Shown: positions 19,333-39,610 of the stretch, in pieces
Layout of the letters: every line of letters begins with the position of its first letter
Position numbering within the stretch: the first letter of the stretch is position 1
Assembly: GCA_937941455.1 (NCBI GenBank)
Contig: CALDHM010000013.1
Coordinates: 1 to 64,000 of the forward strand
Source: an uncultured Pirellulaceae bacterium
GTDB lineage: Bacteria; Planctomycetota; Planctomycetia; Pirellulales; Pirellulaceae
Reading direction: 5' to 3'
Length of the DNA: 64,000 bases
Notes under the pieces: model-generated
What the model saw: the letters and a program-made list of their open reading frames with translations, nothing else
The model's database searches: none
Told to the model about the DNA's origin: nothing
Translations under genes and position numbers: made by a program

Positions 19333-19947
19333 ATGCGTCGCTTGATTCTTATTGTCGCAGTTGCGATTGTTGGTTCAGCAGTCGTTGCCGAAGCCCAGAT
19401 GTTTGGCGCGCGAACCGTTGGGCAGCCTCTGCGTCGACAAAATGCTGTGGGGCGGTTGCCCGCCGAGAATAATCCGCTCGAGTCGCGGCGATTTGTGCGT
19501 GAAAGTCGCGGGAGTAACGAGTTCGTCGGTCGCGATAATCAGGATACGGGCTTCGTCGGCAATGTCGGGGCGAGCGACGCGACAGCGGTGGTGAATCCGG
19601 CCACTTCGGTGATCCAGCGCCAGGATATAGCGCCTGTGATCAATCGCCCTGTCCGCGTACGGCGGCCGAATTCTTTGCTGGATCCGCCGTTGGCTCTCGG
19701 TTTTCAACTTTCTCCTGAAACCATTGCTCGGCGCGACGAGAGAGCGACGAAGTCGATTGCGAGGGTACTATCCTCTCGTTTCGAAAACCAGATCTCGGTG
19801 TCGGTGGTAGACCAGACTGCCATCCTCCGGGGATGGGCTCGCGACGAGGAACAGAAACGTTTGGCGGAGATTCTGGCCGAGTTGGAGCCGGGTATTGTGC
19901 AGGTTCAAAACGAGATCGTGGTGCTTCCATCGGAGTGGAGTCGTTGA
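19333..19947 (+). CDS. Exported protein with C-terminal BON-like domain
   Basis: The 204-residue protein has a signal peptide (about 1-21, ending AVVAEAQ), a polar Arg/Asn-rich linker (about 22-130) and a BON-like alpha/beta domain (about 138-200: SIARVLSSRF, ISVSVVDQTAILRGWARDEE, VQVQNEIVVLP). BON domains bind membranes or proteins in the periplasm, and a similar fold occurs in secretin N-domains, which suits its place beside the secretin genes. Its last 308 bases lie antisense to the 3' end of the lipoprotein gene; its domain is the better conserved of the two. An upstream in-frame start at 19276 would spoil the signal peptide. Confidence 0.8.
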   Translation: MRRLILIVAVAIVGSAVVAEAQMFGARTVGQPLRRQNAVGRLPAENNPLESRRFVRESRGSNEFVGRDNQDTGFVGNVGASDATAVVNPATSVIQRQDIAPVINRPVRVRRPNSLLDPPLALGFQLSPETIARRDERATKSIARVLSSRFENQISVSVVDQTAILRGWARDEEQKRLAEILAELEPGIVQVQNEIVVLPSEWSR

Positions 19948-20704
19948 TCGGGACGGTCTCCGATTTCGTCGACATTGGTCGTGAGCTTGACTCGAAAGGG
20001 CGGTCGGTTTGATTTTCCGGCGTGGCCCCTTTTTGCAAGTGCCGTGAAAAATTGGGGGGGAGATCGATGGTTTCTGTCCGCAAACGATCGACCAGTTCAT
20101 TGAGACTTTCGTTGTCGAGATAGGAAACCTGTTGCACCTCCGAGCGCTTGGGTTTGGCCTTCGTCACCTCCGCATCGCGCTCGGCTTGAGGTCCGGAGCC
20201 AACCATCACCTTTCGTGTCAGGCTGGACAGGACCGTTTCACCATTCTTGCCGTCGAAGCGGGCAATCAGACTATAGTGGCGTGTCGGCGTGTTTGCCGGT
20301 GCTAGGGGGATCCAAAAACTGTAGGAGTGTCCCAGATCCGATTTGCTGTAGTGCTTTTCCAGCGTATCGGCAGGGAACACGAATTTGTATTTGGCGGCTG
20401 GATTGTCGAAATTCTGGTCCTGATCGTCAAACACGAAAATGGTCACCTTGCCCTCGACCTGGAGCGGCTTTTCTTTGTTGTCGTAGAAAATCAGCCGGCC
20501 GCCAAAGCCACGTTCGCTCGGTTTTCCTGGTTGTTGATGCACCGCTTCAGTCCAAACCGCCATGACATGGTCCGGGGTCGGTGGCTGGTTGTTCTTTTTG
20601 GACCAAGGCAGAGGAAACGGCGCCGACGTGTCAATCGTTTGACAACCGCCTGCGGCAGCAACCGCCAATGCGATAACCGTAGTCCAGATCGTGCGCGGGA
20701 TCAT
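19640..20704 (-). CDS. Lipoprotein translationally coupled to the secretin, possible pilotin-like partner
   Basis: The 354-residue protein begins with a lipoprotein signal (about 1-21) ending AVAAAGGC, so the Cys is probably lipidated. A beta-rich domain (about 48-165) contains RGFGGRLIFYDNKEK and VEGKVTIFVFDDQ, then comes a long Ser/Pro/Arg-rich tail. I recognise it only as a protein type seen in planctomycetes. The ATG (20704) overlaps the secretin TGA, so it is made from the same message straight after the secretin, the position expected for a pilotin or secretin-associated lipoprotein. The tail (last about 100 residues) overlaps the convergent BON-like gene by 308 bases, which is unusually long; the stop may have been lost and replaced downstream. 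Confidence 0.78.
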   Translation of the reverse strand: MIPRTIWTTVIALAVAAAGGCQTIDTSAPFPLPWSKKNNQPPTPDHVMAVWTEAVHQQPGKPSERGFGGRLIFYDNKEKPLQVEGKVTIFVFDDQDQNFDNPAAKYKFVFPADTLEKHYSKSDLGHSYSFWIPLAPANTPTRHYSLIARFDGKNGETVLSSLTRKVMVGSGPQAERDAEVTKAKPKRSEVQQVSYLDNESLNELVDRLRTETIDLPPNFSRHLQKGATPENQTDRPFESSSRPMSTKSETVPINDSTPMEAPRSRFEPAQYPAPTRPESPPNVSVPRREPIPGGWQSGLPPTPRSGFRNERIVPSQSTSSLSRRAEQWFQEKVENREPTADPAKNSAAVRGQGD

Positions 20705-23700
20705 GGGAATCTCTGATCGTATTGATTCGCGGGAGGAGCAAGTTGCGCCGGTGGCTCAAGTGGTGCGGTTTCGGTGACGGGTGATTCACCCGGCAGGTAT
20801 TGTTGAGTTTGCGGAGATTCCAGGTCCATCATCCACGGCGAGACCGAGCCGTCCAAACTACCGTGAATTTCTTCCACCTCGCACAGGCACCAGTTCATGC
20901 GAGCAAATTCCATTTGTTGCATCCGCAATTCGTCTTGGCGGTCTCGAATGACGTAGGGGGTTAAGACAATCAGCAATTCGGTCCGTTTGACGAACTCGCT
21001 GTCGAAGCGGAACAATCGTCCCAGGACAGGAATATCGCCCAGGCCTGGCACCTTTCGTTCGATCGTTGCGGCTTTCTTGGTAATCAAGCCACCCAGGATG
21101 ATCGTTTCGCCGGAGGCGGCGCTTACGGTTGCCTGCGCGGTGGTCGTATCCACACGCGGCGAACGGATGATTTCGCCTGTCGGTGAGACGGAAACGGGTA
21201 CCCCTTCGGATTCAGGACCGAGACCGGACCGTTCGGCATCGACCTCCATGACGACGGTTCCATCGGGGCTGATGCGCGGAGTCACGCCGAGAATCAAGCC
21301 TACGTTTTCGAGAACCACGCTATTCGATTGTCCGGCCTGGTTCACGGTCGAGCCAATGATACGAGGGACGCGTTGACCGACCTGGATGAACGCCGGTTGA
21401 TTGTCGAGCGTGCGAATTTGAGGACGGCTCAAGATTTCCAAGCGGCGGCATTCCTGCAAGGCCCGCAGCAAGGCACTGACGCTTTCGCTGCTGGCCGACA
21501 GTACGAGGCCGCCGAAGCCCAGTTCGTTGTTGATCCGGCCCACGGCGAAATTGCTGAGGCCCTGGGAACCAATCACATTGGAGCGCCTGAGCGCCCTATT
21601 GCTGCCGCTGTTTCCTAAAGGCTGGTTGTTGAAATCGAAGCCGGGGGTGTTGGTTGCAGCTTGAATGACTTGTTCCGTGACGGTCACCACGCCGGCAGCC
21701 GTCGAAGTCTGGGTTGTCTGCGTCGTCGTAAGCAAATTGCCCAGCAGGCTGCGGTCGAAGAGAACCGAGTCTTGCAGGCCCAATTCGATGCCGAATTCAC
21801 GCCCGGAGTCGAGCGTGATTTCGGCAATCATGACTTGAATCATGACCTGCGGTGGCGGCTCGTCGAGTTGTTTGATCAGGGTTTCGATTTCTGTAAAGAA
21901 TCGTGGCGTGGCACTGAGAATCAACCGGTTGCCGATCGGTTCGGGCACGACAATGACCTCGCGCTCGAGCTGCTCGAAGGGGCTAACGGCGCCTAAACCC
22001 GCTTGTTGGACCAACTTTTCGGAGCGCAGGAAGCTGTTGATAGAATTGGCCACATCGATCGCCGGGGCGTTCTTCAGTCGGTAGACCATGTTGCGCCGCT
22101 CGGAGAATTCTTTTTCATCGAGCCGCAACAGCAAGGCATGGATGATGCGCAAGTCCCCCTCGGACCCGGTGGCGATGATGGAGTTCGTCCGCGTATCGAC
22201 CGAGAAGCGGAGGGGTGCCAGCGACGGCTCCTCTGCTTCGTTCGACAGCTTCAGGGCGGGTCGGTCTATGGACTGCTCCGGCAGGAGGCTGCGCAGCATC
22301 TGCACGAGGGTCGCAGCATCGCCGTATTCGATACGGAAGATCTTGAGTTGGGCCGTCGCTCCACTCACGTCGAGTTGGCGGATCAAGGCCTCGACCAAAT
22401 CGACACTTTGCGGCGGCCCGGCCAGAATCAGCGTGTTATTCACCGGATTCGCCGTGATCTGGACATCGTCCAACAGCCCGGCTTGCAGCAGCGGCCTGCC
22501 ACTGGCATCGCTCCCCATCAACTCCCACAGCGGGCGGGGTTGCCCGGCCCCCCCTTGCGAGGCGCGAATGGCGCTTTGTATCGTCGCCGCCAACTCGCTG
22601 GCCACGGCGTTCTGGACGCGGACCACCCGCGCCTGTTGCTTGCGGGCGTAGCCCTCGACGTCGAGTTGTTGAACGAATCGGCGCACTTCGTCGAGGTCGC
22701 GCGGAGAGCCGAAAACGACAATCGAATTGGTCCGCGCATCGGCAACCGTCTGCACGCGAGTCCCCAAGCCATCTCGATTTTGAAAAAACGATTGCAACGA
22801 AGATTGCAACTCCGTGGCGATTGCATGCTGCAGGCGATGTACCTCGAATTGCGAATTCGGCGATACTGGTTGATCGAGCTTCTTGATCAGGTCGACGACG
22901 GCCGCGACGGCATCGCCCCAACCGATCAGCAACAACGCATTCGGCTTGCCCAACGCCGTAACCGACACTCGCCCCGTGCGCCCCGAGATCAAGTCGGCAC
23001 TGGTCGTTTGCAAGATTTTTTGCACAGCATCGCTGCGACTATGCTCCAGCGCGATGATTTGTATTTCCGGTTGTGTTTCGGCGCTCAGTCGCTCCAGTTC
23101 CTGTATAATCCGGCGCAATTCTTGAACTTCTTTGTCGCGGCCGCGCAAGATAATGATACCCAAGTCAGGCAAAGTCTCGATTTGCACGGACTCGTTGAGT
23201 TGCCTCATCAAATCGGCACGACGCCGCTCGTCCTCTCGTTCTGCGGGCAGTTTGTCTTCTTGGAGATTTGGTCGCGCCGCTTGCGTCGAGGAGGTGCCTG
23301 GGAGTACGGGCAAGGCATTTTCCACATCTTGGGCAAAGCTTCGACCGCCGGTTGAAACCGCTTGCCGGTCCGTTTGCGTCGAGGTCCATACGTTCACGAA
23401 TCGTTGGACTGATCGAGCGGTAGCCTTGCGGTAAGTCACGATCTCAGGCTGGTTGTTCAACGAGGGACGCTCGTCAATCTTTCTCACGAAGGTAGCGAAC
23501 TGTTGGACCAAATTTTCTGGACCGCTCACATTGACGGTCGCTTGATTCCACAGCCATCCGAATTGCAGGGAGCCATCTTGGGACGAGGCCAGCTCATACA
23601 GGATCCCGTTATTGATTTGCGTCGAGTTCAATTGGCTTGCAAATGAATCGTGAACTGCAGCTTGGAATTGATGCAAATTCAGATGTTGCAAAGGAATCTC

Positions 23701-24150
23701 GTGCCACTGGGCTGCTGGTTTCACCGTGGGGGCTCGAACCGTTTGGTCGGAAGTTGGCGAGCACTGGCGAACGGCTGGTGCAGCATCCGTCCGATTCAAC
23801 GGTTCCGGCGGACGATCCAGTTCGGCCAGGAAGCGATCGCAGTATTGCAGCACAGAAGTGTCCGCGAAGACGACGAGTTCTCGCGGCGAATCAGAATTGG
23901 AAAAAATCTGGTAAACGTATTGAGCGCCTAGTCGACCGCGCAGGTAAACCTCGGCCGCACTGGCCGTCACATGCATCAACTGATAGCGACGGTATTCTCT
24001 TACTGGGTCGCCAGCAGCGAAGGCCTGCTGGGGCTGGGGCGGATTGGGCCGGTTATACGAGTCTTGCTGCCATGCCTTGCCAATGTGCGTCAGGGCGCAC
24101 CAGGCAACGACAATTTGGATTGTCGCTCGACAGCCGTTAAAGTGGTTCAT
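20701..24150 (-). CDS. gspD: Enlarged type II secretion secretin (GspD-like)
   Basis: The 1149-residue protein forms the outer-membrane gate of a type II secretion system. It has a signal sequence (about 1-27) and some seven to eight N-domain-like units over about 35-765, recognisable by repeating endings such as TNSIVVFGSPRDLDEVRRFV, NTLILAGPPQSVDLVEALI and TNSIIATGSEGDLRIIHALL. The secretin barrel region (about 770-1050) starts VMIQVMIAEITLDSGREFG and has the signature VPGLGDIPVLGRLFR near 1033. A Pro/Gln-rich tail ends it. Standard GspD is 650-700 residues, so the excess is almost all extra N-domains. The start at 24150 gives a signal peptide; a TTG at 24186 is possible. It is followed by the lipoprotein (ATGA) and is divergent from the giant N-domain gene. 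Confidence 0.93.
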   Translation of the reverse strand: MNHFNGCRATIQIVVAWCALTHIGKAWQQDSYNRPNPPQPQQAFAAGDPVREYRRYQLMHVTASAAEVYLRGRLGAQYVYQIFSNSDSPRELVVFADTSVLQYCDRFLAELDRPPEPLNRTDAAPAVRQCSPTSDQTVRAPTVKPAAQWHEIPLQHLNLHQFQAAVHDSFASQLNSTQINNGILYELASSQDGSLQFGWLWNQATVNVSGPENLVQQFATFVRKIDERPSLNNQPEIVTYRKATARSVQRFVNVWTSTQTDRQAVSTGGRSFAQDVENALPVLPGTSSTQAARPNLQEDKLPAEREDERRRADLMRQLNESVQIETLPDLGIIILRGRDKEVQELRRIIQELERLSAETQPEIQIIALEHSRSDAVQKILQTTSADLISGRTGRVSVTALGKPNALLLIGWGDAVAAVVDLIKKLDQPVSPNSQFEVHRLQHAIATELQSSLQSFFQNRDGLGTRVQTVADARTNSIVVFGSPRDLDEVRRFVQQLDVEGYARKQQARVVRVQNAVASELAATIQSAIRASQGGAGQPRPLWELMGSDASGRPLLQAGLLDDVQITANPVNNTLILAGPPQSVDLVEALIRQLDVSGATAQLKIFRIEYGDAATLVQMLRSLLPEQSIDRPALKLSNEAEEPSLAPLRFSVDTRTNSIIATGSEGDLRIIHALLLRLDEKEFSERRNMVYRLKNAPAIDVANSINSFLRSEKLVQQAGLGAVSPFEQLEREVIVVPEPIGNRLILSATPRFFTEIETLIKQLDEPPPQVMIQVMIAEITLDSGREFGIELGLQDSVLFDRSLLGNLLTTTQTTQTSTAAGVVTVTEQVIQAATNTPGFDFNNQPLGNSGSNRALRRSNVIGSQGLSNFAVGRINNELGFGGLVLSASSESVSALLRALQECRRLEILSRPQIRTLDNQPAFIQVGQRVPRIIGSTVNQAGQSNSVVLENVGLILGVTPRISPDGTVVMEVDAERSGLGPESEGVPVSVSPTGEIIRSPRVDTTTAQATVSAASGETIILGGLITKKAATIERKVPGLGDIPVLGRLFRFDSEFVKRTELLIVLTPYVIRDRQDELRMQQMEFARMNWCLCEVEEIHGSLDGSVSPWMMDLESPQTQQYLPGESPVTETAPLEPPAQLAPPANQYDQRFP

Positions 24151-24212
24151 TGAGTGAATTACCCGCCTAATTGGTTTAACACGCAAGAGGAGAAAAGTTG
24201 TGTCAACGAATG

Positions 24213-24378: not shown

Positions 24379-24547
24379 GGAGGTTCGTTACGTTAGTCGG
24401 TTTGCTGGCCCGTTCGGCAGCAAGCATCATCAAACCTAATACGCTTCGGTGAAGGCAATCCGAACTCGCCCACGCGTCGTGGCCGGTTCACCGTGATCGT
24501 GAATGCGGCGCAGCGGCTGTCTCTTCTTGTTTGAGGTTATCTCTATC

Positions 24548-27500
24548 GTGAGTAGACTGCGATTCCTTCTGTTTTCCCTTTTTTACATCGCTGCTCTGAT
24601 CGGAGGCAGTTCGGCTCCGGCTCAAGATCAAGATGTGGTGCCAGATTTTGACTTCTTCCGCTTGGTGCATCCCGAGATCGCAGATTTTTTGGAGCTGAGC
24701 GACCAGCAACGCGTGGAAATCGCTAGCGTCGTTTCCGAAGCCTCCGCGGCTATCGCTGCAGCAACTCCCGAAGCCCGCGGCCAAATCACGGCTGACTTCC
24801 AAGCCCGCATTCGTGGCCTGATCACTGCGGAGCAACGCGAGCGTCTGCGCCAACTCCCGGAACTCCGCAAGCTGCGATTTAATTTCAGCAGCCCCAAATG
24901 GGAAGATGTGCTGCGATGGTTCGCGCGCCAATCCGATTTGTCGCTGGTCATGGGAAACGTTCCCCCGGGAGATTTCAACTACTCGGATAATCGCGAGTAC
25001 ACGCCGGCTCAGGCGATCGATTTGCTGAATAGTATCTTGCTGACCAAGGGGTTTACGCTGGTTCGCCGGGACAAACTGCTGATCCTGGTCGAAATCAAAG
25101 ATGGCATCCCCGACGACATTGTCCCACGTGTGAGTTTTGAGGAACTCGCCAAAAGGGGCATTTACGAAATCGTCACGGTGGCGTTCTCACTGGGCGATAA
25201 ACCGGTGGACGCTGTACAAGCCGAAATCCGTCCCGTTTTGGGTAGCTATGGCAAAATGTCGTTGTTACCCAATTCGCGGCAACTGCTCGTAACCGAAACC
25301 GTGGGGAAGCTTCGCGCGATCAGCCTGTTGATCGAATCGGTTCCATCTCCCGCAAAACCGCCTGCGCAACCCCCCGAAAAACCCCCTGAGCCCTCCGAGG
25401 TCCGTTCTTATCCTCTGGGGAAATTGGAGCCAACAGGCACCCTAGCCGCGCTCAAGCAACTTGCTCCGAGCACCATTATCAGTGCCGATTCGACCGCAGG
25501 ACGAATCGTCGTGTATGGCCCCATTTCTCAATTGGAGTTGGTAAAAGCCTACCTGGCACAGCTGGAGGTCGCCCCCGATCAAGCTCCCGACTTGCCACGA
25601 GTTCAGTCTTACGAATTGAAGGGAAAATTCAGCGAGCAGCGGCTGCTCGAACAACTAGCCATCGCGGTGCCGCAAGCCAAGTATTCTTTCGATGCCGCTA
25701 GCGGGCGACTTGTCGCACTAGCGACGAACAGCCAGCAAGACGCGATTCGCGACGCGCTGGAGCAGATGGAGTTGGTCGTCGATCAAGACCGCGGCAAATC
25801 CGTGCAAGTTTTCGCGCTGCGCCGTGCCAGTCCCTCCGCAGTCGCCGAAATCGTTTCGGCCGTTTCGCCCGCAGCCTCCGTCCGCGCGGACCCGGCGACC
25901 TCCACCGTCGTCGTGCGAGCCAACGAGAACGAGTTGGCCATCATCGGTCAACTGATCCAACAATTGGAGGCCAGTGGATCGCGCGGCGAGGAGCAACTCA
26001 CGCTTCGTTCCTTCCCGTTTGAACGGCTGCCGCCACCCGAATTTATCGCTGAGCTGCAGAAGCTCGTCCCGCAGTCGAAGTTGCAAACCGACAACATCAA
26101 CCGCACCGTTTTGTTCATCGGACTCGCTGACGACCTGGCCAAGGTCGAGATGGCTCTACAGCGATTGGCATCGGCAGAATTGCCACAACCTGCGAAGCAA
26201 CTAATTGAATACGACCTTTCGCCGGCCCAGATCAAATTGCTGGAAAGTCTCTGGTTCCAGTTGGACCCCGCAGCCGGCCCCTTGCCGAAGCTGGCCGATG
26301 CCGCACCCGACCGCTTGGTCGTCTGGGTCTCGCCCGAGCAAGACAAGAAGCTGGCAGAATTAGTCGAACAGATCAAACAACTGCAAGTGTCCGAGACTGA
26401 AGCAGAGATCAAACGTTACAGCATCAAAGGGATCAATCCAACAACGATCCTGCAAGTCCTACAAACACAAGTTCCTCAAGCGCAGATCACCCCTGATCCG
26501 CTGGGCGAGTCGATCACGGTGCTTGCCGCACCCGACAAACAGACAAAAATCGCCACCCTCGTCGATCGGCTGAAGAAGGAAACAGAGAGCCTCGATCCGA
26601 CCAAAGTCGAGTTTTACACACTCGACCCACGCTGGGCCACAACAGCGAAAGATATGCTCGCTCAACTGGTCCCGTCCGCCAAGGCGACTTGGAATGCTTC
26701 GACGAATCAATTCACAGTCATCGCCTCCGAGACGGATCACCGTCGCGTGGCTGAGTTGTTGGACAAGTTGCGGACGAATCTTACCCGGCCTGAGGTCCCT
26801 CGGCTGGTCGTCTATTCGCTTGCTGCCGAACTGCGACCTCGATTCGCGGCGATTCTCACGGCTTATGCCAATGAACTACCGAATGTTCAGGTCATTGCCG
26901 ACCAGCGGCCAGGAGAGTTGGCGATACTTGCCAGCGAGGCTGAGCATGAAATCGTCGCGCGAATCATCACGCAGATTTCGCAGCCCGTCGTCGGGGCCGA
27001 GGCCTACGTGATCGCCAGTTATCCTTTGGGAGCGGCCGACGGCGAAAAACTCGTCGAGCTGCTGCGGAAGGTCTATCCTGATATCCAGATTGTCATCGAC
27101 GAACCTGGGGCACGTTTATTGATTTGGGCTCCCGCGAAGGTTCACGAAAAAATCACAACGACCTTGCAAGAGCTCAATGTCGCGCCCAGTGGAAATCGAG
27201 GCGCTCGAATCCTTCGGTCCTATCGCCTCAACACCGACCGCGCGGCCACCATTTTACCCCTGCTGCAAAAGTTTCTGCCGCGTATGCAGATCACCGCAGG
27301 AGACAACCAATCCCTGTTGGTCGCCTGGGGATTTGAGGCCGATCATGACTTGCTCAAGCAAGTCGTGATCCAAATCAATACGCCGGATGATCCCAGCCGA
27401 TTGTCCGTCGAATTTTACGAACTCGGTGATCTGGCGCCCCAGCAAGCATCGTTGATGCTTACCAAATTATTCCCGACCGCCGTCGTCGTTCCGCATCAGG

Positions 27501-30500
27501 CTGCAGGATTGTTGACCGTTCTCGCTCGCAATGACCAGCAAGTCATGATCCGCAGCGCGATCGATCGTTTGCGGTCGACGGCCACGCCCGATGGAGCGCC
27601 CACCGTCGCCGTCTATCGCGTGGATCGCGTCGGCAGCGCCGCCGCCGTGGCGGCCCTCAGTCGCTTGGTGCCCGAGGCTCAAGTCGTGCCCGGAGCGAAC
27701 CCGGCTCAAGTGATCGCTTTTGCCAATGCGACCGAGCACCAACGTATACAAGAATTGCTGCGCTTGCTCGACACGGATCTCTCCGACATTGACGGACTTT
27801 CGCTCAAAACTTATCAGCTCCGCCAAGATCTAGCGGCGCAAGTTCGGCCGCTACTACAGGCCGCTCTGCCGTCCCTCAAAATGTTGGGTACCGATCCAAA
27901 CTTTTTCGCCGTGTGGGCCCGTGATGATGAGCATGAGCGACTGCGGGCTCTGATCGCCGACGCGGAGCAACAATTCGCAGCCAGCGCAAAAACGTATCAC
28001 TCATACCCGCTCGACCAATTGACACCGGCCCAAGCCCGCTCGGCGCTGTTGGCCCAGATTCCCTCCTTGGCGTTCGTCGAACACGGCGATCAACGTTCAC
28101 TCACAGTGCTCGCGACGGCGGCGGAGCACGCGCGGACGGAAAAGATTTTGGCAGAACTGGCAGCAACAGTCCCCCAAGAAATCGAAAAAACCATCCAAAC
28201 CTACGCGCTGCCTGAAACCTCATTAAATCTCTTGGTCGAGTCGCTGCCCGAAAACATCAAGCGTCAATCCAACATCCGTCAGGATCTGGAATCTCAAGCA
28301 CTGATCATCACCGCCCAGCCAGCAGTGCATGAACAACTGGCTGGTTTGATCCCAGAATTGGCGAGCAAGTTGCCGAAGCTCGAACGACCGTTGGCCAAGA
28401 TCTACCCAATGGGGGCGATCGCGGCACGCGATTGGCAAGCACTGGTCGCGCAGCTTGCGCCGACGGCTTCCGTTGCCGTTGACCCCAATTCTGGCAGCGT
28501 CGTCATCACCGCCAAGCCTGACATCCACGAACGAATGGCACAGTTGGTCGCCGAATTTCGCGACAGCATCACGGTTTCGAAAGCGGCGATTGCCTTGCGA
28601 GTATCCCGCGCGGACCTGAAGTCGGTGGCGACCGCCCTGTCGGCCTTGCTGCCCAATTGCCAAATCACGCCTGACCCCACCACGAAATGCCTGGTGGTCG
28701 TCGGTACCGATGCCGATTTGAAAGTAGCTCGCACAACGATCGAGCAAATCGATTTGCACGCCCCCAACGAAACCGTTTCCCAGGTCTACCCCGTACCCAG
28801 CGGCGACGCCACGACGCTCGCCACAGCGCTCAAATCGTTGGTGCCTAGCGGCGTGTTCGTGGCTGACCCTTCGGGCAAGGCGGTTCTAGTACTGGCTACC
28901 GCCGAGGAACAAACGAAAATCGCCGCTACCGTGAACCAATGGGCTAGCGATCCGAACCGGGCCTTGGTCTCACGGGCGTATCCCCTGCAATCGATCGATG
29001 CTCAAGCGGCATTAACGGTGATCCGCACGCTCGTCCCCGGAGCGACTGCGGCAATCGATCCGAATTCCCAAACGTTGGTCGCTACCGCCACGATCCCACA
29101 GCACGAGTTGATCGCGCAGGCAGTCGCAGAACTGGACCGCGAGACCACCGGTCAGCTTTCCAAAATCTATCCTGCCTTGGGTGTGCCGGCGCGCGAGTGG
29201 CAAGCCGTCATCAAGCAGATGGCTCCCAATTCCATCGTCGTTGCCGACCCGAATTCCAACAGCTTGATGGTTACGGCTCCGGCGAAAACACATCGTCTGC
29301 TCGAACAACTCGAAGTCGAGTTTCGCCAATTCACGGCCGTTGACAAATCGGTACGCTCCTATCCGTTGCTCAGTATCGATGTAACTGCGGCGGCGGAATC
29401 TTTGGCGGCATTGCTGCCCGACAGCAAAGTCGTCGCGGATAAAACGGCCAAGGCTCTGATCGTGCTGGCCAGCCCGGCCGATCATCAGCGCGTCGAAGAG
29501 ACGATCAAACAAATCGATCAGCGGGGCAGCGATGTCGAGTTGCGAAGTTACTTGACCGCAGCAACACCGGCGGAATCGATGGCCCGCGCTTTGCGCGAAC
29601 TCTTTCGGAATGATCCGCAGGTCAACGTGGTCGCGGAGCGTGATTCCCGGACGCTGATCGCCGTCGCCCGCCCAGCCCAGCACGAAATGATCGCGGCTAT
29701 GATCGCCGATGCCGAACGGCAGGCCACCGCTCCTGATCGCTCTCGAACCTTACGAACTTGGCCGGTGACCCGCTCCGATGGGCGCACCCTCGCCGATTCA
29801 CTCAATCGTTTGTTCGAAAAGGAAAAATTGCCCCCACTGGTAAGCTTCGATTTAGGGGGCAAACGACTGTTGGCCTTGGCGACACCCGAGCAGCATGACG
29901 TGATCGATCGCACGGTGCGGCAGTTGTCGTCGGAGGAACAGCAATTCCGTGTCTTCAAAATCCAAACCATCGACGCTAACGTCGCGATGACAGCGCTCAA
30001 CAATTTTTTCCGCGATGAACCCGTCAGCTCGGCCCCCGTACTTGATATGGACTTCGATTCACAGTCCCTGATGGTGCGCGGTACGGAATTCCAGATGACG
30101 CAAATTCAGAACGTCTTGCAGCAATTGGGAGAGACCAGCGTCGTCTCCGATCTGGAGGCGCGTCTGGGTAACAGTGTCCGCGTCCTGAACGGCCCGCGCG
30201 ACTGGAGCGAGATCTTAGAACAAGTTCGCCAACTTTGGCCCCAAATCAGCCCCCACCGACTCCGCATCGTCAATCCGCCGGGCACCGCACCTACCCGCCC
30301 CTCCGCGGCAGACACTTCGCCGCCACCCGTGGCGCCTCAGGGACGTGAGGGAGCGCTAAACCTGCGGGACTCTCAACGACCGGGCGTGCCCGTGTTTGAG
30401 CTGACCTCGACCAAGCAGGGGAGGGCATCAACCCGCGACGTGCCCCCAGGACAACCGGTTCAAGACGACCAACTCCTGCCACCACCCATCCAGCAACCCG

Positions 30501-31309
30501 GTGAACCTGCCGAGATCGTGGTTGTCGCTCAACCGGATCGACTGGTGCTGGCTTCGGCCGACGAGGCTGCTTTGAACAAATTGCAGGACTTGATCACCTT
30601 GCTCGTTCGCTCCTCCGGGGGGCGCGACCCGCGCGGGCCGCTGGCCGGGACCCGTAACTTCGACGTCTTTCCGCTAAAAAACGCCGGGGCCGAAGCCGTA
30701 GCGACCCAACTCAGGCAAATGTTTCGGGAATTAGCCACCGCCCGCCGCGGTTCCACCGCAACCGGTGGCGGAACCACACCTGTCGTTTTTGCCGCTGACG
30801 ATCGATTGAATATGCTCATCGTCCACGGCAGTCGAGCGGATCGCGAAGTTGTGGGCGAATTGCTGAAAATTCTCGATTCGGCAGACGTTCCTAACGCAGC
30901 ACTGTTGAATCAGCCCACGATCGTCCCGGTCCGCAATACGCAGGCCAGCCGAGTGCTCACGATCCTCAACAGCCTGTATCGCACGCAACTGACTTCGGGG
31001 GGGGGACGCAAGCAGATTTCGATTCCCGAGGGGATTTCGCCGGAAGTGGCCACCGTGTTGCAACAAGTCAACGCGGCCACAGCTGGTCCCGTGTTGACCT
31101 TGGGGGTCGATGAGATCACGAACTCCATCATCGTCATGGCCCCGCAACAACTGCGGGACCAGGTGCGCGAGGTGATCGAGCAATTGGACTCCGCAGTCGA
31201 AACATTGCCTGGCGAAGGAATCGAGATCATCAAATTCGAAAATTCTAGCCCCGAGCGGATTCAGAAGGCCTTGGATCTGCTGATGAAAAAACGGGGCGCA
31301 GGTCGCTAG
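24548..31309 (+). CDS. Giant exported protein of about 24 tandem secretin-N-like units, without a secretin barrel
   Basis: The 2253-residue protein is the largest in the window. The order is: signal peptide (about 1-26, ending SSAPAQ); a helical segment with LELSDQQRVEIASVVSEA; an STN-like domain (about 107-180, ending DKLLILVE); a Pro-rich linker (about 265-284); about 24 tandem units of 63-70 residues (about 284-1865); a second Pro-rich linker (about 1905-1985); and two longer secretin-N-like domains to the end. No secretin barrel, no membrane anchor and no lipobox is visible. GTG 24548 is preferred (GAGG 11 bases upstream, clean signal peptide); ATG 24503 is the alternative. It is divergent from gspD and precedes gspE, so it is probably periplasmic and tied to the T2SS. 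Function unknown. Confidence 0.88.
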   Translation: MSRLRFLLFSLFYIAALIGGSSAPAQDQDVVPDFDFFRLVHPEIADFLELSDQQRVEIASVVSEASAAIAAATPEARGQITADFQARIRGLITAEQRERLRQLPELRKLRFNFSSPKWEDVLRWFARQSDLSLVMGNVPPGDFNYSDNREYTPAQAIDLLNSILLTKGFTLVRRDKLLILVEIKDGIPDDIVPRVSFEELAKRGIYEIVTVAFSLGDKPVDAVQAEIRPVLGSYGKMSLLPNSRQLLVTETVGKLRAISLLIESVPSPAKPPAQPPEKPPEPSEVRSYPLGKLEPTGTLAALKQLAPSTIISADSTAGRIVVYGPISQLELVKAYLAQLEVAPDQAPDLPRVQSYELKGKFSEQRLLEQLAIAVPQAKYSFDAASGRLVALATNSQQDAIRDALEQMELVVDQDRGKSVQVFALRRASPSAVAEIVSAVSPAASVRADPATSTVVVRANENELAIIGQLIQQLEASGSRGEEQLTLRSFPFERLPPPEFIAELQKLVPQSKLQTDNINRTVLFIGLADDLAKVEMALQRLASAELPQPAKQLIEYDLSPAQIKLLESLWFQLDPAAGPLPKLADAAPDRLVVWVSPEQDKKLAELVEQIKQLQVSETEAEIKRYSIKGINPTTILQVLQTQVPQAQITPDPLGESITVLAAPDKQTKIATLVDRLKKETESLDPTKVEFYTLDPRWATTAKDMLAQLVPSAKATWNASTNQFTVIASETDHRRVAELLDKLRTNLTRPEVPRLVVYSLAAELRPRFAAILTAYANELPNVQVIADQRPGELAILASEAEHEIVARIITQISQPVVGAEAYVIASYPLGAADGEKLVELLRKVYPDIQIVIDEPGARLLIWAPAKVHEKITTTLQELNVAPSGNRGARILRSYRLNTDRAATILPLLQKFLPRMQITAGDNQSLLVAWGFEADHDLLKQVVIQINTPDDPSRLSVEFYELGDLAPQQASLMLTKLFPTAVVVPHQAAGLLTVLARNDQQVMIRSAIDRLRSTATPDGAPTVAVYRVDRVGSAAAVAALSRLVPEAQVVPGANPAQVIAFANATEHQRIQELLRLLDTDLSDIDGLSLKTYQLRQDLAAQVRPLLQAALPSLKMLGTDPNFFAVWARDDEHERLRALIADAEQQFAASAKTYHSYPLDQLTPAQARSALLAQIPSLAFVEHGDQRSLTVLATAAEHARTEKILAELAATVPQEIEKTIQTYALPETSLNLLVESLPENIKRQSNIRQDLESQALIITAQPAVHEQLAGLIPELASKLPKLERPLAKIYPMGAIAARDWQALVAQLAPTASVAVDPNSGSVVITAKPDIHERMAQLVAEFRDSITVSKAAIALRVSRADLKSVATALSALLPNCQITPDPTTKCLVVVGTDADLKVARTTIEQIDLHAPNETVSQVYPVPSGDATTLATALKSLVPSGVFVADPSGKAVLVLATAEEQTKIAATVNQWASDPNRALVSRAYPLQSIDAQAALTVIRTLVPGATAAIDPNSQTLVATATIPQHELIAQAVAELDRETTGQLSKIYPALGVPAREWQAVIKQMAPNSIVVADPNSNSLMVTAPAKTHRLLEQLEVEFRQFTAVDKSVRSYPLLSIDVTAAAESLAALLPDSKVVADKTAKALIVLASPADHQRVEETIKQIDQRGSDVELRSYLTAATPAESMARALRELFRNDPQVNVVAERDSRTLIAVARPAQHEMIAAMIADAERQATAPDRSRTLRTWPVTRSDGRTLADSLNRLFEKEKLPPLVSFDLGGKRLLALATPEQHDVIDRTVRQLSSEEQQFRVFKIQTIDANVAMTALNNFFRDEPVSSAPVLDMDFDSQSLMVRGTEFQMTQIQNVLQQLGETSVVSDLEARLGNSVRVLNGPRDWSEILEQVRQLWPQISPHRLRIVNPPGTAPTRPSAADTSPPPVAPQGREGALNLRDSQRPGVPVFELTSTKQGRASTRDVPPGQPVQDDQLLPPPIQQPGEPAEIVVVAQPDRLVLASADEAALNKLQDLITLLVRSSGGRDPRGPLAGTRNFDVFPLKNAGAEAVATQLRQMFRELATARRGSTATGGGTTPVVFAADDRLNMLIVHGSRADREVVGELLKILDSADVPNAALLNQPTIVPVRNTQASRVLTILNSLYRTQLTSGGGRKQISIPEGISPEVATVLQQVNAATAGPVLTLGVDEITNSIIVMAPQQLRDQVREVIEQLDSAVETLPGEGIEIIKFENSSPERIQKALDLLMKKRGAGR
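25400..30150 (+). repeat. About 24 tandem coding units of ~195-210 bases within the giant gene
   Basis: Each unit encodes the pattern [K/R/Q]xYpl, a helix with L..LvP, then a DP-type turn, a hydrophobic strand such as LVVLAT, and xxHxxIxxxIxxL. DNA identity between units is low, so the repeat is old. Units starting near 28396 and 29163 (KIYPMGAIAARDWQALVAQL and KIYPALGVPAREWQAVIKQM) are closer to each other than to their neighbours, which implies a later duplication of a four-unit block. Confidence 0.8.
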
Positions 31310-31807: not shown

Positions 31808-33508
31808 ATGAATGGCGATATTTTGCTGGATAAGCTCGACGCATCTCTGATGCAGGTCGCTAAAGATTCGCAAATTCGCGATGGAAACCTGGAGCGGTTC
31901 GCTAGTGACGCCGGCTTTGCGTCCGTCAACGATGCGTTGCGGGCAATTGCCAACACACTGCAAATTGGGGTGGCCGATTTAGCCGAACGCCCTCCCGATT
32001 TGACGTGCCTGAACGGATTTCCCGCGAAAATCATCTATCGGCACAATGTTTTCCCCCTGTATCGCGAGGGAGAATCGATCGTTTTGGGGATCTCTAATCC
32101 CTTCGATTTGCAGGCGATCGACGCGGCCGGGGCAGCCTTGGCGATGCCTGTTGTTCCCGCCATTGTTTTCCCCGATGAACTGAATCGGCTGATCAAGACC
32201 CACCTTGGCCTAGGCGCCGAAACCATCGAGGGGCTGATCGCCTTGCAGCCCGAGAGCTCCACCGGCATCGAAATGCTCGAGGAAATCAGCGATGACGGTT
32301 CCGAGGATGCGGAGCAGGCCAAGCAGGCATCGGTGGTCCGACTGGTCAATGAGATTTTGTCGGAAGCTGTCGAGGCCCGTACCAGTGACGTCCATATCGA
32401 GGTCCACCAGACCGGCATCAAACTGCGTTACCGCATCGATGGAGTCCTGCAGCGTCAGCCGACTCCACCTGAAATCGATCGTTTTCGCAACGCAATCATC
32501 AGCCGGCTCAAGATTCTGGCGAAAATGAACATCGCCGAGAAGCGCGTACCGCAAGACGGCCGGATCAAACTCCGCGTGGGTGGACGCGAGGTGGATGTCC
32601 GCGTGTCGGTCATCCCCATGTTGTTTGGCGAAGGTATCGTGCTGCGGATCCTCGATAAATCCAAAATGGATTTTTCCTTGAGTGGCGTGGGTCTGTCCGA
32701 CGATTTGTATCGCGACTTTAAGCGGTTGATTCACCTGCCCCACGGCATCGTGTTGGTCACGGGCCCGACCGGCTCCGGTAAAACCACGACCTTGTACAGC
32801 GCGCTCAATGAAATCAAAAGCGAAGAAACAAAAATTATCACCACCGAAGACCCCATCGAGTATCATCTCGACGGGATCAACCAAATCCAAGTCAATCATA
32901 AGGTCGGTCTGACCTTCGCGGCGTGTCTGCGTAGTATTTTGCGGCACGACCCGGATGTGATCCTGGTCGGCGAAATTCGCGACTTAGAAACCGCTGAGAA
33001 CGCTACTCAGGCCTCCCTCACCGGTCATATGGTATTCAGCACACTGCACACGAACGACTCGGCCGGGGCGTTCATGAGGTTGAAGGATATGGGGGTCGAG
33101 CCGTTTCTGGTGGCGAGCACGCTGGAGGGGGTTTTGGCGCAGCGATTGATTCGTCGGCTATGCCCTGATTGCCGCGAGCCGCATCTACCGATTCGGGAGG
33201 ATATTCCGGAGGATTTTCCGTGGGAGCAGTATGAAGCGCACCGGCCAACGCTGTATCGCGCGGTCGGTTGCCGAGAATGCCGTGGGACGGGATATCGCGG
33301 CCGCATGGGCATCTTCGAACTGTTACTGGTCAACGAAGAAATTCGGCATCTTGCCTCCGAACGAGCTGCCACCAGTGAAATTCAAAAAGCCGCTATGCGC
33401 AATGGCATGCGGACACTCCGGCAAGACGGTTGGCGCAAGGTGCTGGAGGGCACGTCAACAGTCGAAGAGGTGCTGCGCGTAACAAAGTTTGACCATGTCG
33501 TGTCTTGA
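31808..33508 (+). CDS. gspE: Type II secretion assembly ATPase GspE
   Basis: The 566-residue cytoplasmic ATPase powers pseudopilus extension. The N-terminal N1E-like part (about 1-150) precedes the motor. Walker A GPTGSGKTTT is at about 318-327, the Asp box EDPIEYHLDG follows, Walker B is DPDVILVGEIRD (about 380-390), and the His box is FSTLHTNDS. The zinc site CPDC (about 452) plus CREC (about 488) marks the GspE/PilB group. Length matches the family. It is the first gene of the platform-pseudopilin operon and is 23 bases before gspF. The ribosome site at the ATG is weak. Confidence 0.96.
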   Translation: MNGDILLDKLDASLMQVAKDSQIRDGNLERFASDAGFASVNDALRAIANTLQIGVADLAERPPDLTCLNGFPAKIIYRHNVFPLYREGESIVLGISNPFDLQAIDAAGAALAMPVVPAIVFPDELNRLIKTHLGLGAETIEGLIALQPESSTGIEMLEEISDDGSEDAEQAKQASVVRLVNEILSEAVEARTSDVHIEVHQTGIKLRYRIDGVLQRQPTPPEIDRFRNAIISRLKILAKMNIAEKRVPQDGRIKLRVGGREVDVRVSVIPMLFGEGIVLRILDKSKMDFSLSGVGLSDDLYRDFKRLIHLPHGIVLVTGPTGSGKTTTLYSALNEIKSEETKIITTEDPIEYHLDGINQIQVNHKVGLTFAACLRSILRHDPDVILVGEIRDLETAENATQASLTGHMVFSTLHTNDSAGAFMRLKDMGVEPFLVASTLEGVLAQRLIRRLCPDCREPHLPIREDIPEDFPWEQYEAHRPTLYRAVGCRECRGTGYRGRMGIFELLLVNEEIRHLASERAATSEIQKAAMRNGMRTLRQDGWRKVLEGTSTVEEVLRVTKFDHVVS

Positions 33509-33531: not shown

Positions 33532-34752
33532 ATGCCCGAGTATGCCTTTGTTGCCCGATCCATTGATGGCAAAACGACCCGCGGTTCCATCACGGCGGAC
33601 TCGCGGAATGAAGCCATCAGCGAACTGCGGCAGCGCTCTTTGTATCCTCTGACGATCCGCGATGCCCAGGCCTCGCGCAGGTCGGGACTGGATTGGCTCC
33701 AGCAACACAAGGTGAGTGCCGAAGTACTCGCGGCTCACCTGTCGCAGTTGGCTGATTTGCTGGAAAACGGGGTCGCCTTGCTGGAGGCCCTCGATGTCCT
33801 CGCGCGTGAATCAACTCATGCGCGAATGGCGAAGACGTTTGGCGAGATCAAGGCGTTGGTCGCTGAAGGGGTTGCTTTTGAGGACGCTCTAGCGCGGTTT
33901 CCCACTCAATTTCCCGCGATGTGTATCAGCATTGTCAAAGCGGGCTCCGAAGGGGGCTTTCTCGAGGACGCCTTGCGACGCGTCGCCGAGTACCTGGAAT
34001 TACAAGCGGAGTTGAAGGGCCGCATCACGTCGGCTATGGCCTATCCGGCCTTCCTACTAGTAGCCGGTTTTCTTGTGACCCTATTTTTGATGTTGTTTAT
34101 CGTGCCGAGGTTTCAACAACTCTTCGATCGTCTGGAGGATAGCGGTGCGGGATTGCCCTTAATCACGCAAATCTTGTTGACGACGCGACTTATTATTCTC
34201 GAACAAGGCTGGTTGATTCTGTTGGCACTGGGAGGTATCGCTTTTGGTGCCCAGCAAGCCGCCAGTTCGGATTGGGGTAAGGCGCTGATCGACCGCTGGG
34301 TTTTGAAGTTACCGGTTCTAGGTGAGATCGTTCGGCAAGGCGCAGTTTCGCGATTTTGCCGGATCTTGGGAACGCTGCTGAAAAACGGCGTGCCGATGTT
34401 GCGGGCTCTCGAAATCAGCAGCAGGTCCACGGGCAATCAGCTTCTCGAGCAAGCGGTTACGAATTCAGCCAAGAGCGTTTCCTCGGGTGAGTCGTTGTCC
34501 AAGCCCCTGGGGACGAGTGGACTGATTCCGCCGTCGACGATGGCCATGATTCGCATCGCGGAGGAATCGAACACGCTCGACCGCGTCCTGCTCAAAATCG
34601 CGGATTCTATCGATAAAAAAATTCAACGCCAGCTCGACATTCTGGTACGGATGATCGAGCCGATCATGTTGCTGCTGATCGCTGCGGCGGTCTTGTTCAT
34701 TTTGTTGGGATTGCTGTTGCCGGTCTACGACATGAGCGATGCAATCGGTTAG
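33532..34752 (+). CDS. gspF: Type II secretion inner-membrane platform protein GspF
   Basis: The 406-residue protein starts MPEYAFVARSIDGKTTRG and has two T2SSF domains (about 65-190 and 268-392) and three membrane segments (about 168-190, 222-240, 375-400), the standard GspF/PilC layout. It connects the GspE motor to pseudopilin assembly. A GAGG ribosome site precedes the ATG. It is followed by 149 bases that carry an inverted copy of the palindromic element before gspG. Confidence 0.95.
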   Translation: MPEYAFVARSIDGKTTRGSITADSRNEAISELRQRSLYPLTIRDAQASRRSGLDWLQQHKVSAEVLAAHLSQLADLLENGVALLEALDVLARESTHARMAKTFGEIKALVAEGVAFEDALARFPTQFPAMCISIVKAGSEGGFLEDALRRVAEYLELQAELKGRITSAMAYPAFLLVAGFLVTLFLMLFIVPRFQQLFDRLEDSGAGLPLITQILLTTRLIILEQGWLILLALGGIAFGAQQAASSDWGKALIDRWVLKLPVLGEIVRQGAVSRFCRILGTLLKNGVPMLRALEISSRSTGNQLLEQAVTNSAKSVSSGESLSKPLGTSGLIPPSTMAMIRIAEESNTLDRVLLKIADSIDKKIQRQLDILVRMIEPIMLLLIAAAVLFILLGLLLPVYDMSDAIG

Positions 34753-34901: not shown

Positions 34902-35366
34902 ATGAAACGTGCAGGTATGAGTTTGTTGGAAATCTTGATTGTGCTGTCGATTTTGGCAGTACTCATCGCGATCGTGGCTCCGCGGATTCTCGGGTCGCAA
35001 AAGAAGGCGGATATCAAGTCCACCAAGCTGCAAATCGCGAACATCGAAGAAGCGCTCAAATTGTACGCCGCGGACAATCGCACCTTCCCCACAACCGAAG
35101 AAGGCCTGAAAGGCTTGATTTCCAAACCCGACGACGAAAAACGTGCTCGCAGTTGGGATGGGCCCTATTTTGACGGCGAAGATGTCCCGGTGGATCCGTG
35201 GGGCAATGAGTTCCGCTACGAGTACCCCCCCACGAAGAACCAACGCGATTTCCCGGATCTGTGGTCGCTAGGACCCGATGGCATGGAAAACACTGATGAT
35301 GATATCGGAAATTTCTCGACGAGTAAGGACGGCGAGTCGGAAACGAAAACTAAATCAAACGATTGA
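34902..35366 (+). CDS. gspG: Major pseudopilin GspG
   Basis: The 154-residue protein has a very short leader MKRAG, then MSLLEILIVLSILAVLIAIV, the prepilin-peptidase site with Glu at +5 and the hydrophobic helix. The C-terminal domain has the GspG hallmarks TFPTTEEGLKGL, DGPYF, PVDPWGNEFRYEYP and an acidic LGPDGMENTDDDIGNF calcium loop. A polar tail (about 15 residues) extends past the normal end. It forms the pseudopilus shaft. A ribosome site (AGGAGAA) precedes the ATG. No prepilin peptidase gene lies in the window. Confidence 0.96.
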   Translation: MKRAGMSLLEILIVLSILAVLIAIVAPRILGSQKKADIKSTKLQIANIEEALKLYAADNRTFPTTEEGLKGLISKPDDEKRARSWDGPYFDGEDVPVDPWGNEFRYEYPPTKNQRDFPDLWSLGPDGMENTDDDIGNFSTSKDGESETKTKSND

Positions 35367-35388
35367 GCTTGCGACGCGTCGGCTGCAG

Positions 35389-36294
35389 ATGCCCTGCGAT
35401 GACGCGACGGGCTCTACCGATCAAAAGAGTCGGAACCCGAACATCGTTTCCATGATTGCCAAGTTCAGCGTGGCGACCCCTGCTTTTGGTGCCGAGGCTG
35501 CTGCGGCTGCCGGTTTGAATTCGTTCGCTGCCGTTCGAACGGAAATACGGCAAGTTCGCCAGGGGGAAAGAATTCCGGCGACGAACCATTGGCGGAGCGC
35601 TATCCCGCGGCTAGGGATATCCTTGATCGAGCTGTTGCTCGTCGTGGCCATCCTTTCGGTCGTGGTGGCGATCGCTTGGCCGTCGCTCCGTCGTCCGATC
35701 AGCAGAAACCATATCGAAACTGCGGCACGACAAGTGCAAGCGGATTTGCTCAAGGCACGATCGCTCGCCATGCGACAACGCGAGATGTTCGTGTTTTTCT
35801 ACCGCTATGATGCGGATCAGTATGTGATCAGCTCGCTGCGATCATGGCAGAAATCGGGGGTGCCGTCCGCGCTGGACTCGATCGAGGATGAGCGGACCGC
35901 TGAGTCAGCTACCGATCGCATCCGCGGCCTACTACCGGAAGGGATTCGGTTTGCGCGACAAGACAAATCGACGGCTGAGCTACAGCGTGAAGGAGTCCCG
36001 CAAGATTCCAATCGCGTCGATCGCGCAGAGTCGACCTCTGGCGATACCGAAAACAGGGCGTGGTCTGAGATGATTTTGTTCTTTCCGAGTGGTGGTCTGC
36101 AATCGAAGGTAGTGCAACTGGCCAGCGATCAAGGCTATCTCATCGAACTCCGACTCGATGGTTTTGGCGGGCGCATCCGAATCGAGAATTTGCGGCGCGA
36201 GTCGAGCGACGGGGAGACGCAACAGACAGCCGAGCGGCCACATACGCATTCTCCCGCCGATAAATCGAAACGCAAACCGGTCGAGGAGGAGTGA
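35389..36294 (+). CDS. gspH: GspH-like minor pseudopilin with an unusually long leader
   Basis: The prepilin motif RLG/ISLIELLLVVAILSVVVA and a GspH-like beta domain (LLKARSLAMRQREMF, MILFFPSGG, LELRLDGFGG-like) identify the pseudopilin. The start is uncertain. ATG 35389, 22 bases after gspG, places the cleavage glycine at residue 76 of 301, and ATG 35452 gives a 55-residue leader, while normal leaders are 5-25. A non-standard start closer to the motif (after GGGGAAAG near 35570) is possible. A reading from 35278 overlaps gspG and is unlikely. The C-terminal 40 residues are charged and probably disordered. TGA is followed at once by the next gene's GTG. Confidence 0.85.
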   Translation: MPCDDATGSTDQKSRNPNIVSMIAKFSVATPAFGAEAAAAAGLNSFAAVRTEIRQVRQGERIPATNHWRSAIPRLGISLIELLLVVAILSVVVAIAWPSLRRPISRNHIETAARQVQADLLKARSLAMRQREMFVFFYRYDADQYVISSLRSWQKSGVPSALDSIEDERTAESATDRIRGLLPEGIRFARQDKSTAELQREGVPQDSNRVDRAESTSGDTENRAWSEMILFFPSGGLQSKVVQLASDQGYLIELRLDGFGGRIRIENLRRESSDGETQQTAERPHTHSPADKSKRKPVEEE

Positions 36295-36885
36295 GTGGTG
36301 TCTCGGATACCCCAGTACGGTGAGCGTCCGCGCCGGCCGGGCTTTTCGATGTTCGAAGTCCTGGTGGCCATGGTGGTTTGTGTTTCGGGCATCGCGCTGA
36401 TCGTCGGTATCATCCAAAGTGCAGAAAATCTCTCGAAGAGAACGCAGACGAGGTTGATGCAACAACGTTTGTGCCAAAACCTGCTGAATCAAATCTTGTT
36501 GGGGATCACGGAACCTCGAGAAATTCAGCGGGAGGAATGTCCAGAAAACGACGAGTTTTGGTTTAGCGTCAAGGTCGATCGCTATCCCTATCTACCGCTG
36601 AACCGAATCGAGGTCGCTGTTTGGCCGAAAGGCAACGAGACGCCGGTTCCTCGCGCTCCACTTGCTCGCTCTGAAGGTGTCGCAGGGAGTACGGAAATCA
36701 AGTCTAGCGCACCAGAGAGCGAAATCAAGAAGTTCGTTTTGGTAAGTTTACTGCCGATCTCCGCAGGTGATCTCAAACACCAACTACCTGCCGCAGAAGG
36801 ACAAACGGGTAACGCGGAATCTCCCGCGAATCGCCGAAGTGATACGGCGGGTCCGCCAACGAAGTCGGGGGGACGAACTCAATGA
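36295..36885 (+). CDS. gspI: GspI-like minor pseudopilin
   Basis: The 196-residue protein starts at GTG 36295 directly after the gspH stop, with GAGGAGG upstream. The leader is cleaved at RRPG/FSMFEVLVAMVVCVSGIAL, with Glu at +5. GspI caps the pseudopilus tip with GspJ and GspK. The central part (about 75-115) is the small beta domain; the rest is polar and poorly conserved, with a Ser/Pro-rich tail. The assignment rests on the motif and on its order between gspH and gspJ. Confidence 0.85.
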   Translation: MVSRIPQYGERPRRPGFSMFEVLVAMVVCVSGIALIVGIIQSAENLSKRTQTRLMQQRLCQNLLNQILLGITEPREIQREECPENDEFWFSVKVDRYPYLPLNRIEVAVWPKGNETPVPRAPLARSEGVAGSTEIKSSAPESEIKKFVLVSLLPISAGDLKHQLPAAEGQTGNAESPANRRSDTAGPPTKSGGRTQ

Positions 36886-39547: not shown

Positions 39548-39610
39548 ATGAAGTTCAACGATTGTGGAGTTTCGACCTCGCTGTTGACACCGTAAACAGG
39601 AATGCTCTTG

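Follow-up and report, generated by a model that had tools for sequence, protein, structure and literature searches.

Within a type II secretion system (T2SS) locus, an uncultured Pirellulaceae bacterium encodes a 2253-residue protein made up of one N0 domain and a long array of secretin N domains, with no secretin barrel, beside a GspD that has no N0 of its own. This giant is probably a periplasmic module of the T2SS secretin that has become detached and expanded, with its rings stacked in series under the N0-less GspD. The stretch of DNA that was analyzed, hereafter the window, comprises 64,000 nucleotides (GenBank assembly GCA_937941455.1, contig CALDHM010000013.1, positions 1 to 64,000).

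Locus and domain architecture of the giant protein

The gene is flanked by a divergent gspD on one side and by gspE-F-G on the other (Table 1), as the initial annotation had placed it between a secretin operon and gspE. Several of the T2SS assignments in the window are made from weak matches, position and recurrence only. The 354-residue protein with a lipobox-like N terminus is a candidate pilotin or secretin partner, and relatives of it stand beside long GspDs in loci such as L076, L082, L089, L102, L115 and L129, and also beside GspD in L157, L168 and L171.

Table 1. Features of the T2SS locus and of the giant protein (window coordinates).
Feature	Position	Strand	Basis or remark
354-aa protein, lipobox-like N terminus	19640..20704	-	adjoins GspD in relatives; no Pfam match
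GspD secretin without N0, N units and barrel	20701..24186	-	1161 aa from TTG, 1149 from next ATG
Giant barrel-less N0 and N-domain protein	24548..31309	+	2253 aa from GTG
Signal-peptide-like N terminus	24548..24625	+	by eye from translation
N0 domain (GspD-type, STN-like)	24863..25102	+	PDB profile match, PF21305 in family, 4jtm model match
25 tandem Secretin_N units, period about 66 residues	25199..30184	+	Pfam, unit profile, model
Low-confidence linker	30284..30493	+	model, pLDDT mostly < 50
C-terminal N-like domains with inserts	30494..31243	+	family profile, model
Terminal strand and helix, like the start of a further N domain; protein ends there	31229..31306	+	alignment, profile; helix alone modelled
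GspE ATPase	31808..33508	+	PF00437 457.8 bits; TIGR02533 609.5 bits vs cut-off 630.25
GspF	33532..34752	+	Pfam, NCBIfam
GspG major pseudopilin	34902..35366	+	PF08334 102.1 bits
GspH-like pseudopilin (weak)	35278..36294	+	N_methyl and sub-threshold GspH
GspI-like pseudopilin (by position)	36295..36885	+	sub-threshold N_methyl
GspJ-like pseudopilin (weak)	36882..38054	+	sub-threshold T2SSJ and N_methyl
GspK-like (weak, by position)	38051..39547	+	sub-threshold NF037980
L-like component	39602..41284	+	position, recurrence in relatives' operons; no informative Pfam match
M-like component	41281..42219	+	position, recurrence; no Pfam match

The reading frame (24503-31309, forward strand) is open for 2268 codons, and a start at ATG 24503 would give 2268 residues. 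GTG 24548, the start chosen initially, has GAGG eleven bases before it and a signal-peptide-like stretch directly after it, and looks to be the better start; the length given at the outset, about 2250 residues, agrees with the 2253 counted from there. Read from its sequence, the protein appears to be secreted and to have no anchor. The segment ahead of N0 (24626-24862) gives an LTXXQ-like match that is weak and falls below the cut-off (E 0.083).

The nearest relative (L036) is 75% identical over 2203 aligned residues, with identity peaking in N0 (0.98, residues 133-198) and high toward the C terminus (0.94, residues 2113-2178), and Ka/Ks between the two is about 0.06, a ratio that is only rough because Ks (2.8) is saturated. 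The low Ka/Ks, together with homologues in many genomes, rules out a chance frame or a frame artefact. Loss of the barrel through a local frameshift is likewise rejected, since L036 has the same end, 28 relatives have a comparable C terminus that can be aligned (L123, L133 and L142 only in part) and a separate barrel-bearing GspD is encoded next door.

Pfam recognizes Secretin_N in the window protein at 386 bits, with 14 individually significant stretches, and finds neither the secretin barrel (PF00263), which the initial annotation had also reported missing, nor the GspC domain (PF11356) at E <= 1. The best NCBIfam model is GspD, below its cut-off. With a unit profile built from the protein's own family, 27 N units are found at E < 1e-3 in addition to one degenerate unit; 25 of them follow one another without a break over residues 236-1879 with a period of about 66, and two more lie near the end. 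The array first described as about 24 tandem and two terminal units is thus borne out as an array, and its tandem count becomes 25, with the degenerate unit added. The units diverged long ago, their pairwise identities averaging 23% and reaching 41% at most, and the window protein contains no recent near-identical copies.

The best conserved part of the family is residues 121-284. A profile of 40 relatives matches GspD N0-N1 structures in the PDB (5mp2, E 3.4e-5; profile positions 7-166 against 5wln 19-170, E 4e-4), and among the 40 members taken singly the GspD N0 family PF21305 matches 31 and Secretin_N 36 at E <= 1; for the window protein itself the PF21305 match to N0 is weak (E 0.025, below cut-off). 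An AlphaFold2 model of residues 112-645 from 51 sequences (pLDDT 86.4) has N0 and then N units in series, the units being beta-alpha-beta-beta-alpha, and its pTM of 0.46 means that the arrangement of the units is not fixed by the model. The best 20 Foldseek rows obtained with the window model are all T2SS secretin entries. Similarly, VIA-align gave Z 14.3 against PulD (6hcg; 278 aligned, rmsd 20.5 across several domains, flexible), Z 11.9 for N0 alone against 4jtm (rmsd 2.0 over 80) and Z 10.8 for a single unit against Vibrio cholerae GspD (9k8v; rmsd 1.2 over 58), rows with Z below about 8, for example KH-type proteins, being counted as a common arrangement. The domain originally called STN-like is accordingly a GspD-type N0, and the units adopt the secretin N fold and not an unrelated one. 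A separate model of the C-terminal 584 residues (pLDDT 74.3) shows N-like domains along with a disordered stretch, and it lacks a barrel.

Secretin N domains are ring builders, and the secretins known so far have a handful of N rings. The window protein shares with the periplasmic N0-N3 of GspD, PulD and XcpQ (6hcg, 4jtm, 5mp2, 5wln) an N0 followed by beta-alpha-beta-beta-alpha N domains, a T2SS locus and the top structural matches, but it has no barrel and 27-28 N domains against about three. A ring-building domain without a secretin barrel is also found in proteins of the SpoIIIAG kind, which belong to a sporulation channel and have few domains.

Giant and compact relatives

A whole-protein search matched 51 of 60 relatives, ordinary secretin N-domain matches included. 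From these matches 40 regions were selected manually, the window's own genome contributing two. An N0-N1 profile scan of genome contigs yielded 91 relatives, 80 of which were kept; 79 of these are named as members of planctomycete groups, and one is labelled 'bacterium' only. The window and loci L036-L155 together hold 121 N0-N1 proteins (109 non-redundant), and none of the 121 has a barrel detectable with a profile from the barrel of the window GspD. After 28 cut sequences among the 109 were set aside, the 81 complete frames were classed as giants (36, with 16-48 units and 1614-3749 aa), compact companions (40, of 925-1495 aa, exactly six units in 34 of them) and broken or odd frames (5). On the N0-N1 tree the giant and compact labels need four changes, compared with about 32 when shuffled, and the two compact-labelled rows within the window's giant group are both broken frames (L037, L081).

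In L037 (genome G002), L081 and L112, all from draft genomes, giant genes are interrupted into several frames. Members of the compact clade (e.g., L061, L055 and L111) have N-terminal extensions of very different length. The window's own genome encodes a second barrel-less N0 protein (1004 aa; contig C5, L071 8186-11200, reverse strand) with three to four Secretin_N matches and no T2SS genes recognized within about 8 kb, as well as a second long GspD-type secretin without N0 (1169 aa; contig C7, L072 6285-9794, forward strand).

Giants are not usually far from T2SS genes: any T2SS gene lies within 4 kb in 17 of the 20 giants having at least 4 kb on both sides (the exceptions being L045, L047 and L113). 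Of the 32 complete giants with 2.5 kb or more of sequence downstream, 20 are followed by a same-strand gspE no further than 4 kb away. From the 4-14 T2SSE-family matches per genome, counted in 20 genomes, chance proximity to gspE would be under about 1%. For compact companions the corresponding counts are 8 of 36 for gspE and 11 of 31 for any T2SS gene, 20 of the 31 having none within 4 kb.

Several giants carry near-identical units one to four positions apart (units 23 and 24 at 97% in L084, units 7 and 10 at 98% in L082, and units 23 and 27 at 96% in L108), so the number of units is still changing by block duplication. A ruler of fixed length is unsupported, the unit number ranging from 16 to 48 in complete frames and reaching 49 in two cut ones.

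The N0 domain is distributed unevenly between companions and secretins. None of the 16 long GspDs (1094-1400 aa) from the first loci examined has it, nor do two shorter secretins, and 108 of the 109 non-redundant companions contain exactly one N0 over 10 bits. Neither the lack of N0 in the co-encoded GspD nor the existence of a compact paralogue figured in the initial annotation. Searched genome-wide in 36 relatives at E <= 1e-3, the Pfam N0 model, which is not fully sensitive and misses the window's own N0 at this threshold, gave 12 hits, none of them in a long GspD: nine fall in frames of 523-869 aa (eight with a barrel) and three in companions.

Ordinary, split and one-piece secretins across the phylum

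Run against 148 genomes across the phylum, the N0-N1 profile found matches at 1e-6 in 41, counting those to secretins, and 17 regions were read, then 17 more. Four states can be told apart. In the first, an ordinary GspD of 698-934 aa has N0, three to four units and a barrel (L165, L166, L167 and L169); no N0-N1 match at 1e-6 lies outside a barrel-bearing frame in these four genomes, in one of which (G204) a second match is also in a barrel-bearing frame, and the stretch upstream of gspE is out of view at these loci (697 bases in L167). In the second, found in family f21, GspD has N0, four to five units and a barrel, and a compact companion stands just upstream of gspE (L156, L157/L158 and L170; such GspDs also occur in L168 and L171). 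The f21 GspD keeps its own N0 in all five cases read, and a giant is present in one genome of this family (L159). Transfer of N0 from GspD to its companion is therefore no general rule, f21 having N0 in both, and the proposal that N0 simply moved is weakened. The third state is that of the window and its relatives, an N0-less GspD with a giant companion.

In the fourth state, found in other classes of the phylum, N0, 26-45 units and a barrel form a single chain of 3103-5073 aa (19 proteins; L160-L163, L172, L174-L183 and L186-L189). K-L-(M)-like genes precede these fused secretins wherever that stretch is in view, and Pfam counts 48, 38 and 35 Secretin_N stretches in three of them, each with a barrel. 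The 5073-residue frame, in L160, has an uncertain start, its N0 beginning only at residue 530. At least 33 of 61 genomes around G129 have a barrel in a frame of at least 2400 aa, and G129 is a single contig, so the fused giant secretin is no assembly artefact. They share with the window protein the N0, the long N-domain array and, where in view, a T2SS-type operon, but differ in carrying the barrel in the same chain and in belonging to other classes of the phylum.

A natural split occurs in L173, where a gene of 1698 aa (N0 and 15 units) is followed 39 bases on by one of 2418 aa (21 units and a barrel); each has a signal-peptide-like start by eye, and the first protein's N0 clusters with those of fused secretins. 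In L184 (2167-18225, reverse strand) three overlapping open frames of 2191, 1696 and 1495 aa are probably one broken giant-secretin gene.

Since its distant relatives have both parts in one protein, the window protein looks like a detached and lengthened half of a secretin, and the one-piece proteins in other classes strengthen the early suggestion that it extends the secretin channel. A profile of the giants' last 273 residues matches, among the matches listed, N domains of long GspDs about 140 residues before the barrel; on the window GspD it covers residues 432-638 (56 bits), with the barrel from 781, and the giant's terminal strand and helix coincide, again among the matches listed, with the start of the next GspD unit. 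For the same profile the matches listed in fused proteins include positions about 190-240 residues before the barrel (L187, L178 and L181, 64-67 bits) and others elsewhere in the array that score as well or better (L176, L173 and L183). Because several places in the fused arrays match, the profile is a sign of kinship, and a precise breakpoint is not claimed.

The lengths of giants and their co-encoded GspDs, compared by eye in 12 pairs, show no clear relation. Adding up their units gives 28-42 in 11 pairs; the remaining pair, whose giant is cut, gives 15, and two of the other giants are cut as well. The overlap of these sums with the fused range (26-45) is no more than suggestive.

Arrangement in the envelope and competing explanations

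For the window protein we infer oligomeric rings, their serial order, orientation and length, and a role in secretion. Its gene, which encodes no barrel, would descend from a secretin N module (N0 and N domains) and would have grown by repeated unit duplication. The protein would be secreted to the periplasm, where copies would stack as rings beneath those of the N0-less GspD, with the N0 of the window protein facing the inner-membrane platform, and the stack would join the platform to the outer-membrane pore across the wide planctomycete periplasm. A precedent is described in parts of PMC5745081, according to which Thermus thermophilus PilQ, with six rings (N0-N5), has a length of 350 Angstrom and reaches across most of a wide periplasm. 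PilQ and the window protein alike have more N domains than usual; PilQ is a single protein that includes its barrel and serves a type IV pilus and DNA uptake, and its six rings compare with some 28 N domains in the window protein, and the fused relatives have 26-45 units, or as many as 48 when Pfam stretches are counted. Rough scaling from PilQ would put 28 rings at something like 100 nm, and the stack, supposing that all units are stacked, would measure very roughly 80-100 nm.

Some observations count against this explanation. Compact proteins often lack nearby T2SS genes, as do a few giants, and the f21 GspD with its own N0 breaks the simplest version of the split-secretin account. Moreover, the linker before the last domains, disordered in the model, seems ill suited to a stack that is rigid throughout. 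That linker, if flexible, and the low pTM would better suit a monomeric or low-order strut, arranged as beads on a string, in which N domains serve as spacers and N0 tethers the platform to GspD or to peptidoglycan outside the channel; the variable unit number and recent block duplications also suit a spacer, and the N0 retained by the f21 GspD points the same way. We regard the strut as unlikely, although better placed than the other rivals, because in other classes a comparable array runs into the barrel within a single chain and would naturally be stacked beneath it, and because N domains are generally known as ring builders (see also the parts of PMC5745081 on PilQ).

The distance of many compact paralogues from T2SS genes suggests that some members may act outside the machine, and GspD N domains contact substrates. 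Both would fit a periplasmic scaffold for substrate handling, in which N domains bind cargo or the pseudopilus and concentrate it near the secretin, yet this leaves the barrel fusion and the single conserved N0 unexplained, and we think it very improbable.

GspC is often hard to detect outside proteobacteria, so its absence is only suggestive here: none of 40 relatives has a PF11356 match above the cut-off, one match falls below it, and E. coli and Caulobacter controls are positive. That result, and the binding of the GspC HR to the N0 of GspD in known T2SS as described in parts of PMC3169554, would favor an N0-bearing protein that replaces GspC as connector of platform and secretin, with length secondary, which we find slightly less credible still, given that N0 is the receptor for GspC and not GspC itself, that the window protein has no PF11356 match and that GspC may be too divergent to detect.

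Passages of PMC4793230 give T2SS predictions outside Proteobacteria as very few in 2016, and PMC5177795, in the parts seen, reports plentiful giant genes in planctomycetes with the word 'secretion' absent from its main text. Among the papers listed from the open-licence PMC literature, none concerns a planctomycete giant secretin or N-domain array; the initial annotation, too, knew of no described T2SS component of this architecture. As to the envelope, sections of PMC5394234 describe a wide and variable planctomycete periplasm with 'press stud-like' crateriform contacts between the membranes, extrapolated to 104 per cell in Planctopirus limnophila; the contact proteins are not named there, and 'secretin' and 'type II' are absent from its main text. 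Linking the stack to these contacts is speculation. It would make the planctomycete T2SS conduit, as a giant or a split pair, a stack of about 30-45 rings, tens to about 100 nm long and tuned by duplication, that is itself the crateriform press-stud pinning the membranes together, and we consider this improbable as a whole.

Taken together, a separate protein with about 28 N domains and one-piece relatives with 26-45 occur in a phylum whose periplasm is unusually wide and variable. The natural series from ordinary secretin to one-piece giant, two adjacent genes and separate pair bears on how secretins are built, and allows one to ask whether ring number tracks periplasm width. The case also bears on how a T2SS works without a recognizable GspC, and the family of the window protein is a concrete candidate for the contact sites between the inner and outer membranes of planctomycetes.
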